A stretch of DNA of 64,000 nucleotides, taken from the NCBI RefSeq assembly GCF_001636345.1, contig NZ_KV440945.1, positions 1,775,631-1,839,630 on the forward strand, written 5' to 3'. Numbering within the stretch: the first letter of the stretch is position 1; every line of letters begins with the position of its first letter. Below are positions 13,321 to 54,528 of this stretch, piece by piece. The stretch is from Cytobacillus gottheilii (GTDB lineage Bacteria > Bacillota > Bacilli > Bacillales > Cytobacillaceae). A program made the translations under genes and the position numbers. The notes under the pieces were generated by a model that was not told the DNA's origin, did not search any database, and saw only the letters and a list, made by a program, of their open reading frames with translations.

Positions 13321-13870
13321 ATTGTGTGCCCGGCATGGGTGCAGGCTCTAGGGTGCGAGTCCCGAACGGCGAAGGCAGTAGTAGTCGTAGCTTAAGACAA
13401 GGATATGCGGGGTGACCCTCCTATCTGAAGGAAGTCGGCGGCAAACTTCCGCTCTGAGGAACACGAATCTCATATGAGGCTAGATGACATTGGGTGAGTC
13501 TGCAATACAAGACAAAGTCCATACTGCCAAAGGTGTCACAGAGTAAATGAGGCGGAGACATGGAAGGAAAGTCTGTACTCTTACCCGGGGAGAACCTGTC
13601 GATATGCCGTACTCATGCGGTAAGCCTATCCGTGAGGATAAGTTGAACGACAGGCGTCAGCAGAAGCCATAGTACTTATTCGCTTAAGAGGATAAGGAAG
13701 GGCTGAACCGGTTATGGAAAATAGGAACTAGGCGTATCTTTCCATTCGATGAAACAGAAAACATAGTACCTGTTTAATGAAAGAAACGGTGAATCCGCGG
13801 GGGTCATTAAACAGGGTGGAGAATGAAAAGGACACAAACAGAACACCTATTTACGCGGGAGGTTATATCA

Positions 13871-15133
13871 ATGTTAATGGAACGAATCATGTCACGGGAA
13901 AACCTACTTAATGCGATTAAAAGAGTAGAAAAGAATAAGGGAAAACATGGAGTGGACGAAATGCCCGTCACTGCTCTTCGTGGACATATTATGCTCAACT
14001 GGAGCGAACTGCGAAAATCCCTCTTCGAGGGAACCTATATCCCATCCCCCGTCCGTCGAGTCGAAATCCCGAAACCAGACGGCAAAGGGAAGAGGAAACT
14101 GGGAATCCCAACCGTGACAGACCGTTTCATTCAACAAGCAATCACCCAAGTGCTTACCAGAATGTATGACCCTAGTTTCTCTGAATGTAGCTTCGGCTTT
14201 CGCCCTAACAGGCGAGCGCACCAGGCTGTTAAATTAGCCCAAAGCTATATAGAAGAGGGTTATCGATGGGTAGTCGACATTGACCTTGAAAAGTTCTTTG
14301 ACAAGGTTAACCACGATAGATTAATGAGTAAATTAGCCATGAGGATAAAGGATAGTACTCTCCTCAAACTAATAAGACGGTTCTTAACCTCTGGTGTTAT
14401 GGAAGGCGGACTTGTCAGTCCTAACCTTGAGGGGACACCGCAAGGTGGACCTTTAAGCCCTTTACTTTCGAATATTGTGTTGGATGAACTGGATAAAGAA
14501 CTGGAGCGCAGAGGACATCGCTTTGTCCGCTACGCCGATGATTGTAATATCTATGTGAAATCTAAAAGAGCTGGAGAAAGAGTTATGAAGGCAATGACCC
14601 ATTTTATCGAGAGGAATCTTAAACTGAAGGTTAACAAGGATAAAAGTGCTGTAGACCGCCCTTGGAAAAGGAAATTTCTTGGGTTCAGTTTTACAAGTAA
14701 TCTAAAACCGAAGGTGAGAATATCTCCCCAATCAGTTAAACGGTTTAAAGATAAAATAAGAAAGCTTACAAGCAGACGAAGGTCAATTGCCATGGAAGAT
14801 AGGATTCATAACCTTAACCAATATCTAGTGGGATGGGTTAATTATTATCATTTAGCAGATACCCGTTCAGTAATCGCAAAACTCGAAGGATGGCTTAATC
14901 GAAGGTTAAGAATGATTCGATGGAAGGAATGGAAACTTCCCCAAACGAAGGTCAAGAAACTTATTAAACTAGGTGTTTCGAAAGGGAAAGCATATGAATG
15001 GGGAAATACAAGAAAGGCTTATTGGAGGATATCCAAAAGTCCAATTCTTCATAAAACATTAGGGAAAGCCTACTGGCTTTCCCTTGGGTTAAAAAGTATT
15101 TCTGCTAGATATGACTTACTGCGTTCGACTTAA
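13871..15133 (+). CDS. ltrA: Group II intron-encoded reverse transcriptase/maturase
   Basis: The protein helps the intron RNA splice and copies it into DNA at new sites. It has reverse transcriptase motifs including FSECSFGFRPNR, VVDIDLEKFFDKVNHD, QGGPLSPLLSNIVLDELD and the catalytic YADD in RYADDCNIYV, then a maturase (X) region with LNQYLVGWVNYY. There is no C-terminal HNH endonuclease, as in class C proteins. I choose ATG 13871 because GGGAGG (about 8 bases upstream) is a strong ribosome site and gives the usual length of about 420 residues; an in-frame ATG at 13823 would add 16. No frameshift is present. Confidence 0.93.
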   Translation: MLMERIMSRENLLNAIKRVEKNKGKHGVDEMPVTALRGHIMLNWSELRKSLFEGTYIPSPVRRVEIPKPDGKGKRKLGIPTVTDRFIQQAITQVLTRMYDPSFSECSFGFRPNRRAHQAVKLAQSYIEEGYRWVVDIDLEKFFDKVNHDRLMSKLAMRIKDSTLLKLIRRFLTSGVMEGGLVSPNLEGTPQGGPLSPLLSNIVLDELDKELERRGHRFVRYADDCNIYVKSKRAGERVMKAMTHFIERNLKLKVNKDKSAVDRPWKRKFLGFSFTSNLKPKVRISPQSVKRFKDKIRKLTSRRRSIAMEDRIHNLNQYLVGWVNYYHLADTRSVIAKLEGWLNRRLRMIRWKEWKLPQTKVKKLIKLGVSKGKAYEWGNTRKAYWRISKSPILHKTLGKAYWLSLGLKSISARYDLLRST

Positions 15134-15137
15134 TCGG

Positions 15138-15214
15138 AACCGCCGTATACGGAACCGTACGTACGGTGGTGTGAGAGGGATAAATGGAGGTTAATCGCCT
15201 CCCCCTATCTCAAT
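15138..15214 (+). ncRNA. Group II intron domains V and VI
   Basis: Domain V is formed by ACCGCCGTA (15139-15147) pairing with TACGGTGGT (15162-15170), with an inner TACGG/CGTA helix and a two-base CG bulge. The triad position reads CGC. Domain VI follows (GAGAGGG pairing with CCTATCTC, with GGAGG/CCTCC inside) and would carry the bulged branch-point A. Domain V starts 5 bases after the reverse transcriptase stop codon. Confidence 0.8.
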
Positions 15215-27697: not shown

Positions 27698-27730
27698 AAA
27701 AAAAGACCAGTGCCTCTGCAAGCACTGGTC
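27698..27730 (-). terminator. Leftward terminator without an obvious gene
   Basis: GACCAGTGC (27705-27713) and GCACTGGTC (27722-27730) pair perfectly, with seven A residues on the left that become a T-run on the minus strand. It would stop leftward transcription arising in the brxB promoter region, but no minus-strand gene lies there. Confidence 0.6.
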
Positions 27731-48908: not shown

Positions 48909-48937
48909 TTGACTCTTACTGCACTCCATACTATAAT
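48909..48937 (+). promoter_or_regulatory. Strong sigma-A promoter for the T-box transcript
   Basis: TTGACT (48909-48914) and TATAAT (48932-48937) are separated by 17 bases. Transcription would start near 48944, just before the T-box leader. Confidence 0.85.
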
Positions 48938-48968
48938 CACACTTATACTTTAAAACATCATATGATTT

Positions 48969-49211
48969 AAGCGATGATAAGAATCCTATTAAGTCTTATT
49001 TCCCTGTTATAGAGAGCCGGCGGTTGGTGAAAGACCGGCACATAAATAAGATGAATTTCACTCTTTGAGCTTTCCTTGTCTATTACGCGCGTGTTATTTC
49101 AGACAAGGCGGTTTTAACCGTTATATTTTCGAGTGGAAAGTCACATGCTTTCAAAAAGGGTGGTACCGCGTGCAATTTGCACGTCCCTTTCAGGATGCAT
49201 GTGGCTTTTTT
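48969..49211 (+). ncRNA. T-box riboswitch with phenylalanine specifier
   Basis: The leader contains the AGAGAG...GG(C)GGTTGGTGAAAGACC pattern of Stem I, an upper helix TCTTATTT/AAATAAGA, and the specifier loop side GAATTTCA; codon TTC (49057-49059), or TTT if read one base earlier, both specify Phe. The T-box sequence AAAAAGGGTGGTACCGCG lies at 49153-49170. The terminator arms GTCACATGC and GCATGTGGC end in TTTTTT at 49211. Uncharged tRNA would stabilise the antiterminator and switch on the transporter gene downstream. Confidence 0.9.
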
Positions 49212-49315
49212 GTGTTTTCAGAAGTATAAATACAACTAGGCCATTGGCATTGCCCTTTTAGGCTAGCCAGAGGCAGTTTTAAAAAAGATAGAGGAATAAT
49301 CAAGGAGGAACACAC

Positions 49316-50659
49316 ATGCAGCAAAATGAGCAATGGTCATCAAGAATTGGATTTATTTTAGCTTCTGCAGGATCAGCCATCGGGCTTGGAGCGATATGGA
49401 AGCTTCCGTATGTAACGGGAATGAGCGGTGGAGGCGCATTTATTCTTTTATTTGTATTGTTTTCTGTTTTAATCGGGTTGCCGCTGCTGCTTGCAGAGTT
49501 TATCGTTGGACGAAGCACTGGTAAGGAAGCCATTTCAGCATATAAGCAAATTGCTCCAAATACGAAATGGCATTGGATTGGCTATTTAGGAGTGTTTGCC
49601 TGTTTTCTTCTTTTGTCCTTTTATAGTGTAATTGGCGGCTGGATTATTCAATATTTGTATTATGCAGTGACCGGAGTGGGAAGCAGCTATGAAAATGGGT
49701 ATGAGGAATTGTTTAATCAAGCTGTTTCGAATCCATACACTGCGATCGGAGCTCAAGCTCTGTTTCTAATCTTAACCGTTCTTGTTATTTCAAGAGGAGT
49801 GCAAAATGGAATTGAAAAAATGAATAAAGTGTTTATGCCTGCTTTATTTATTTTATTTGTCATTTTAATTGTACGCTCTTTAACATTAGAGAATGCAATG
49901 GAAGGTGTGTCTTTCTTTTTAAAGCCAGACTTTTCAAGTATTACGTCTGAAAGTGTTCTATATGCAATGGGTCAATCATTCTTCTCGTTAAGTGTCGGGG
50001 TATCGGTTATGGTGACGTATAGTTCGTACTTATCGAAAAAAGAGAGCCTTGTACAGCCGGCTGTTTCTGTAGTAGGGATGAATTTATTTATTTCAATTTT
50101 ATCTGGTTTAGCGATTTTTCCAGCGGTCTTTTCGTTAGGCTTCGAACCCGCACAAGGTCCAGGACTATTGTTTATTGTTCTGCCATCTGTCTTTAATGAA
50201 CTGATGTTTGGGCAAGTATTTTTACTTTTATTCCTTCTATTATTCTTGTTTGCTACGCTTACCTCTGCGTTTTCCATGCTGGAGATCGTCGTCGCGGCGT
50301 TCACAAGCAAGAACCCTGGCAAGTCGAGAGGGAAAATGGCCTGGTTAATGGGAGCAGCCATTTTTATTGTCGGTATTCCGTCGGCGCTATCTTATAGTGT
50401 GTTATCAGACTTTATGATTTTTGGAAAAACTATTTTTGACGGTGCTGATTTCCTTGTCAGCAATATACTGATGCCAATTGGTGCTTTCCTTATCTCTATT
50501 TTTGTATCCTTTAAAATGAAGAAGGATCTTTTGACAAGCGAAGTCGTTCAAGGATCAAAATCTTTACATGGCCTGTTTAAGGTTTGGTTTATCCTTATTC
50601 GATATGTTGTTCCACTCGTTATTATTGTTGTATTTTTGGATGTGCTTGGAGTCATTTAA
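49316..50659 (+). CDS. NSS-family sodium-dependent amino-acid transporter
   Basis: This 447-residue protein of the neurotransmitter:sodium symporter family has about 11-12 membrane segments and the N-terminal sodium/substrate site [20 protein letters not shown]. The family imports amino acids such as Trp, Tyr or Leu with Na+. Transcription control by a T-box reading a Phe codon predicts uptake of phenylalanine or a related aromatic acid. AAGGAGG lies 7 bases before the ATG. A terminator follows, so the gene is monocistronic. Confidence 0.92.
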
Positions 50660-50678
50660 TACGGTTATCAACATTACG

Positions 50679-50711
50679 GCGTACCAATTCTGTAGAATTG
50701 GTGCGCTTTTT
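50679..50711 (+). terminator. Terminator after the NSS transporter
   Basis: GCGTACCAATTC (50679-50690) and GAATTGGTGCGC (50695-50706) pair with one G-U and are followed by T residues. Confidence 0.88.
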
Positions 50712-54159: not shown

Positions 54160-54396
54160 AAATAAAAAGTCCCTTCATCCTGTAAAGGACGAAAGGACTG
54201 ATCTTCCGTGGTACCACCTTCATTTGCTTTTTACCATGCAGCATGTAAAAAGCATCTCAATTTCGTTAACGCCGAAACACGGTAGCAGGTTTCCCTGACA
54301 GCTCATAAGCAGGTTCAATGGTCAAGGGGGCAATGAAGCCTTTCAGCCGGTGGGCTCCACTCTCTTTTGCGCTTTTCCATTTACTAGTCTTATTCA
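54160..54396 (-). ncRNA. T-box riboswitch with proline specifier
   Basis: On the minus strand the leader shows the AGTA loop motif (ACTAGTAAATGG), AGAGAGTGGAGCCC and a CCGGCTGAAAGG stretch, the specifier loop GAA-CCT-G with proline codon CCT, the T-box AAGGTGGTACCACGG and a terminator stem AGTCC...GGGACT followed by TTTTTATTTTT. It would sense uncharged tRNA-Pro and control proC directly downstream. Confidence 0.93.
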
Positions 54397-54528
54397 TTGC
54401 TTTTGTTATTTAGTTTTAGGGTGTTAGTGTATTCTGCAGGTATTCTTTATAGAAGTTCTTCAGAAGTTTTTTATATAGCTTCTGTTTTGAAGTGTTTAAT
54501 TTTTATAATATTGTGGATTTTTACAGTG

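Follow-up and report, generated by a model that had tools for sequence, protein, structure and literature searches.

T-box control of genes of the neurotransmitter:sodium symporter (NSS) family has a precedent in the Bacillus cereus group, where Wels et al. (2008) described three NSS genes under Leu, Trp and Phe T-boxes, predicted substrates from the specifiers and inferred a broad NSS specificity (passages of PMC2494555). The same passages derive the Phe leader from a Tyr-tRNA ligase leader, as inferred for B. anthracis. Another member of the family, MhsT, has Trp, Tyr, Phe, Val, Leu and Ile as substrates (excerpts of PMC9350835). In the canonical T-box, the terminator takes its 5' strand from the 3' strands of antiterminator helices A1 and A2 (passages of PMC7583486 and PMC10907184), and Stem III has been called indispensable for function (passages of PMC7583486).

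We analysed a 64,000-nucleotide stretch of Cytobacillus gottheilii DNA (the window), in which the gene of a lone, MhsT-like NSS amino-acid importer is very probably under the transcriptional control of a tRNA-Phe-responsive T-box. The sequence itself shows a promoter-like site, a T-box with its specifier and bulge, a strong hairpin with a U tract, and the gene family; the switching, its direction and the substrate of the transporter are inferred.

The leader and its transporter gene

A sigma-A-type promoter-like site, TTGACT-N17-TATAAT, lies at 48909–48937 on the forward strand; it matches 11 of 12 consensus positions and is the best of 7 such sites in the 521-base region, where 2.0 were expected. 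It is followed by a T-box leader RNA at 48965–49191 (+), which matches RF00230 over positions 1–219 of the 219-position model (score 128 bits, gathering score 93; E = 4.5e-28) and comprises Stem I, the II/IIA-B region, Stem III and the antiterminator. Stem III, formed by GAAAG with CUUUC plus a loop, was placed at 49136–49152 (+) from the sequence and from where the Rfam match puts this stem, and helices A1 and A2 at 49156–49189 (+) from the Rfam match and the fold. The T-box bulge, UGGUACC, occupies 49161–49167 (+), its UGGU being complementary to the tRNA end ACCA (A73). A predicted terminator hairpin at 49135–49210 (+; minimum free energy −37.4 kcal/mol, z −4.5, with further support from pair counts) contains the antiterminator and is followed by a U tract. 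Because a plain fold of the whole leader was no better than shuffles (z −0.44), we base the leader structure on conservation and the covariance model. The leader terminator is absent from the list of a simple terminator scan because loops in that scan were limited to at most 8 bases. A second hairpin, downstream of 49216 and ahead of the gene, was rejected as a terminator (−17.5 kcal/mol, z −1.0, only four U after it).

Downstream, a ribosome-binding site (AAGGAGGA, 49302–49309, +) ends 6 bases before the ATG of an NSS (SLC6-type) transporter gene of 447 amino acids (49316–50659, +). An intrinsic-terminator-like hairpin of 13 pairs lies 3' of the gene (50678–50707, +; 0.1 such sites expected), so the gene looks monocistronic. 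The protein matches PF00209 (2.4e-51; 175.5 bits against 27) and the NCBIfam sodium-dependent transporter family NF037979, and its nearest solved relative by sequence is MhsT (4us3; E = 1.6e-104, 353.7 bits over residues 4–444), the next structure scoring 117.2.

The binding-site residues are conserved in part. The window protein has Ala26, Lys29, Phe46 and Asn256 at LeuT positions 27, 30, 47 and 286, where MhsT has Asn, Arg, Tyr and Asp; we take these to be Na1, gate and chloride-site positions. Na2 positions, presumably LeuT 20, 351, 354 and 355, are kept as Gly19, Ala313, Thr316 and Ser317; MhsT differs here in having Ser at LeuT 354 and is otherwise alike. Ala replaces Asn27, which we assume to be a conserved Na1 ligand of LeuT, in 109 of 110 aligned rows, Asn being found in one paralogue from the window's own genome and in MhsT. 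The Ala/Lys pair at LeuT 27 and 30 is likewise present in 109 of 110 rows, the exception being that genome's 504-amino-acid paralogue, and Tyr47 is mostly replaced by Phe in the subfamily. We took Asn27 as a variable trait that is no bar to NSS membership. Since the subfamily has Ala where LeuT has this Na1 ligand, textbook two-sodium coupling is uncertain, and ion coupling may differ from that of both LeuT and MhsT. A narrow literature search on the B. subtilis relatives (YocR with YhdH) returned no paper.

Under the proposed mechanism, transcription would start just after the TATAAT at 48937, and Stem I would hold tRNA-Phe by UUC–GAA codon–anticodon pairing. When Phe is short, the 3' end (ACCA) of uncharged tRNA-Phe would pair with UGGU in the antiterminator bulge, stabilizing the antiterminator/Stem III domain so that polymerase reads into the transporter gene. 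With tRNA-Phe charged, the hairpin at 49135–49210 would form and stop transcription before the gene. The product would import Phe, probably with other large hydrophobic amino acids, on the sodium gradient.

The preliminary description of this locus, whose start at 48909 coincides with the promoter-like site, is partly supported. Its complete T-box leader is borne out by the full-length RF00230 match, and its lone NSS symporter by the PF00209 match and the hairpin after the gene; taking both together, a full T-box leader preceding a lone NSS gene is confirmed. Starvation-induced uptake stands as a prediction. What was presented as a new substrate assignment adds to one already known, given the Phe T-box of Wels et al. 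and Phe transport by MhsT (PMC2494555 and PMC9350835, in the parts cited above), and the substrate range of MhsT also makes Leu or Trp as the usual substrates an overstatement.

The genome with this window has 24 T-boxes at E = 0.001 or better, and a second one falls within the window itself (54182–54406, −; 95.2 bits), with a CCU (Pro) specifier, upstream of a gene reading as proI. Elsewhere in the window, group II intron pieces were found at 734–810 and 13406–15214, with RF00029 matching at two places and the D1–D4 models RF02001 and RF01998 matching at 13406–13703, and the reverse strand at 27698–27767 matches the Listeria sRNA sbrA (52 bits).

Related transporters and the breadth of the substrate

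An upstream antiterminator motif is carried by 34 of 41 loci with a related transporter; the 7 without it are L038, five loci of Oceanobacillus, Paucisalibacillus or Ornithinibacillus type (57–59% identity) and one 31% relative. Using cmscan on 20 of the 41 loci, we found an upstream T-box above the gathering score in 16. On a tree of 110 NSS proteins, the leader was of Phe type in 49, of Leu type in 3 and decayed in 1, and 57 had none; this tree, built by a quick method with SH-aLRT only, leaves 26 of its 106 inner branches open, the 31% relative was omitted from it, and the leader state of the window was set by hand. The state 'none' means no motif within 750 bases, and cmscan of 20 such loci was empty.

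The leader state changes at least 8 times on this tree. The clade of the window (39 rows, support 95) contains 37 Phe leaders, and the other 12 fall in three places: L086 alone; L118, L119 and L121; and a group of eight rows. Seven of those eight (L093, L099, L101, L117, L120, L122 and L123) have two tandem Phe T-box motifs, both GAA-UUC, and cmscan on four of the group recovered two T-boxes in three (L093, L099 and L122) and one in the fourth. Matches to the BsrF sRNA, cut by the stretch end, were seen near two of the Phe-T-box NSS genes (L118, 1–100; L119, 2039–2138).

Three related NSS genes carry Leu leaders (CUC). When paralogues with Trp or Phe T-boxes were sought in three genomes with three NSS matches, only Leu leaders were found, and cmscan of six paralogue stretches was empty, so these genes could not be paired with the trio of leaders in Wels et al. 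None of the 24 T-boxes in the window's genome precedes either of its two other NSS genes, and cmscan of L142 and L146 was empty as well. Separately, L217 has a Trp-type T-box (specifier UGG, bulge UGGC) ahead of a gene reading as an NSS transporter in which the Asn (GLGN) is kept.

It is quite possible, though we lean against it, that the leader reads Phe while the transporter accepts hydrophobic amino acids broadly and mainly carries one other than Phe, in which case the specifier would set only the timing. MhsT takes six hydrophobic amino acids (PMC9350835, in part), Wels et al. suggest broad specificity for the family on the same ground (passages of PMC2494555), and the Leu leaders, together with the repeated changes of leader state, indicate that specifier and substrate may be loosely linked. 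However, Phe leaders, some differing in architecture, occupy four separate places in the tree, a pattern less expected if specifier and substrate were only loosely paired. This recurrence, compatible with separate gains or with repeated losses, strengthens the substrate prediction, and a Phe importer under a Phe T-box remains our preferred reading.

It is very unlikely that the leader is a decayed T-box, merely inherited and no longer switching. Decay does occur nearby, as L058 is without everything upstream of the antiterminator and L038 without a T-box motif, but all T-box parts are present in the window leader. Moreover, compared with L025, a Cytobacillus gottheilii locus whose transporter is 98% identical, identity is 93.7% across 252 aligned columns of the leader, against 38.5% across 174 columns of the stretch after it (gaps counted as differences). 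In L058, a promoter-like TTGACA/TATAAT upstream of 1461 leads almost directly into the antiterminator, everything from Stem I through Stem III being gone.

Specifier register, tRNA match and leader origin

The specifier UUC (Phe) was placed at 49057–49059 (+), in the loop UGAA-U-UUC-A-C, from the Rfam alignment and from its register against relatives and the genome's other T-boxes. Among the 41 related-transporter loci, 33 retain GAAUUUC; the remaining 8 are without an intact specifier region, 7 showing no T-box motif and L058 keeping the terminator end only. In further genomes, UUC is the triplet common to Phe leaders with U, A or no spacer after GAA. A pattern allowing only UUC and CUC, preceded by GAA and 0–1 base, fits 51 of 52 aligned rows with the antiterminator motif, window excluded (48 UUC, 3 CUC), the one failing row being L058. 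In the matched leaders of relatives (61 matches, 58 UUC and 3 CUC, a few loci counted twice, the window not included), the triplet ends 6 or 7 bases before GAG and is followed by A, G or C, the pattern not admitting T there.

The same spacing of 6 or 7 bases before GAG holds for the specifiers of the 12 leaders, out of the genome's 24, that were tabulated by hand. The specifier directly follows GAA in the serS (UCC), trpS (UGG) and proI (CCU) leaders, comes one base after GAA in the two tyrS (UAC), ileS (AUC) and argS (CGC) leaders, and lies further downstream in the pheS (GAACAUUC) and thrZ-like leaders; the window fits the GAA-plus-one-base kind. These gene names come mostly from translated starts, synthetase identity having been checked for the two tyrS, pheS and proS only. 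One further T-box of the collection, L016 (G000:C1:2610232-2610495, −), precedes a SAM hydroxide adenosyltransferase gene; its loop holds GAACAAUGGCC, its bulge is UGGU, and its specifier is possibly Met (AUG).

Two tRNA-Phe genes with anticodon GAA and A73 were found in the genome, so that UUC is complementary to the host anticodon and the UGGU bulge fits the discriminator. Two tRNA-Ser genes have G73, which fits UGGU only by wobble; because TBDB permits G–U wobble at the discriminator (PMC7778990, in part), UGGU by itself leaves room for Ser. As the specifier loop holds one extra C after the A, counting 2–4 bases back from the loop end gives UCA, which corresponds to the first TBDB frame by our own reading and count of the rule (passages of PMC7778990). 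A Ser (UCA) or His (CAC) specifier 1–3 bases downstream, with the gene answering to another amino acid, is nevertheless so improbable that we set it aside: this frame and the presence of a tRNA-Ser with anticodon UGA speak for UCA, but UUC is constant while the next base varies (A or G in relatives, C in the leaders of another group), it is the triplet shared by GAAUUC and GAAAUUC leaders, and UGGU forms no Watson–Crick pair with G73 of tRNA-Ser, the genome's own serS leader using UGGC, although the discriminator argument covers Ser and not His, which TBDB exempts.

The Phe reading is thus retained. Of the two Phe triplets first suggested, TTC or TTT, the comparison of relatives favours UUC over UUU, and the TCA (Ser) case named there as refuting is disfavoured by conservation, spacing and the bulge. 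UUU directly after GAA, a possible reading of the window sequence by itself, was set aside since it does not occur in leaders whose spacer is A or missing, and either codon means Phe; an AUU (Ile) register was disfavoured by conservation and spacing. Among Phe specifiers in TBDB, UUC accounts for 0.99 and UUU for 0.01 (PMC7778990, in part).

Among the genome's 23 other leaders, the window leader is most like those of the two tyrS genes (identity 0.599 and 0.582), followed by serS (0.559), with reversed-sequence controls at 0.16–0.42. Origin from the pheS leader was rejected (identity 0.449, 13th of 23, below both tyrS leaders). UAC and UUC differ by a single base change. As far as leader similarity indicates, this agrees with the inference of Wels et al., in another lineage.

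Terminator topology and comparison with known systems

In the predicted fold, the arm before the U tract (49197–49210) pairs with 49135–49148, the 5' arm of Stem III, enclosing A1, A2 and the bulge. The energy of this hairpin compares with −20.4 for the best fold with Stem III forced. A canonical terminator was tried and rejected for the window leader: when the 5' strands of Stem III, A1 and A2 were kept from pairing, the best fold had −5.8 kcal/mol and did not reach the U tract, whereas the same treatment gave −22.8 for the genome's tyrS leader L004 and, for two leaders of Mesobacillus type, −27.2 and −31.1. The predicted terminator is exclusive with Stem III and not with helices A1 and A2; the family match stands.

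By automatic classification, this nested topology is found in all 22 leaders from the window's subclade, which comprises Cytobacillus and neighbouring genera, while all 15 intact leaders of the sister Mesobacillus-type subclade are canonical; across 60 T-box copies overall, 22 were nested, 36 canonical and 2 unclear. Three of the genome's 24 T-boxes are nested, namely the NSS leader, one tyrS leader (L002) and the proS leader. From 115 T-box loci of other genomes, a sample favouring high-scoring T-boxes in which two loci were fetched twice, 109 were classified as 100 canonical, 5 unclear, 1 without a U tract and 3 nested, two of the last being orthologues of the NSS leader and the third weak (−12.6).

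Pair counts over the 22 leaders (21 distinct) showed 97.2% of outer-helix cells paired, against at most 66.3% when slid. Three pairs changed on both sides and the covariation score was 0.082, neither value being reached in 500 shuffles; further pair types numbered 7, reached by 62 of 500 shuffles. Because no double change is seen in more than one sequence and the rows are close relatives, these counts are support for the outer helix and not proof of it.

We tentatively propose, with the balance tipping slightly towards doubt, a T-box variant whose off-state would keep the antiterminator, the off-hairpin using the 5' arm of Stem III and enclosing A1 and A2 with the bulge exposed. Topology would then differ between orthologous leaders, nested in the window's subclade and canonical in its sister. 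Within this model, Stem III and the outer helix likely compete, uncharged tRNA deciding the contest by latching Stem III. The parts of PMC7583486, PMC10907184 and PMC7778990 drawn on here contain no description of a Stem III terminator, subscription journals being largely uncovered. If real and functional, a nested terminator would separate antiterminator formation from the prevention of termination in T-boxes, and would make the role of Stem III directly testable.

The locus resembles the B. cereus group system in having a Phe-specific T-box before an NSS-family gene, and in both the leader is related to a Tyr-tRNA ligase leader, a likeness seen here independently (passages of PMC2494555). 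It differs in belonging to another genus, within a clade in which 37 of 39 rows have Phe leaders; the passages on the B. cereus group give no terminator topology. What this analysis adds, as judged from sequence comparison, is the wider distribution, the tyrS-like leader and the predicted Stem III terminator enclosing an intact antiterminator, this apparent build of the stop signal being the one unusual feature. The window locus is one more well-supported case of reading the substrate of a transporter from its T-box. With the canonical T-box, for example B. subtilis glyQS, it shares the Stem I specifier, Stem III, the UGGN-bulge antiterminator and the U tract; in the canonical form the 3' strands of A1 and A2 pass into the terminator, whereas here Stem III is predicted to be used and A1 and A2 to stay paired inside (passages of PMC7583486).
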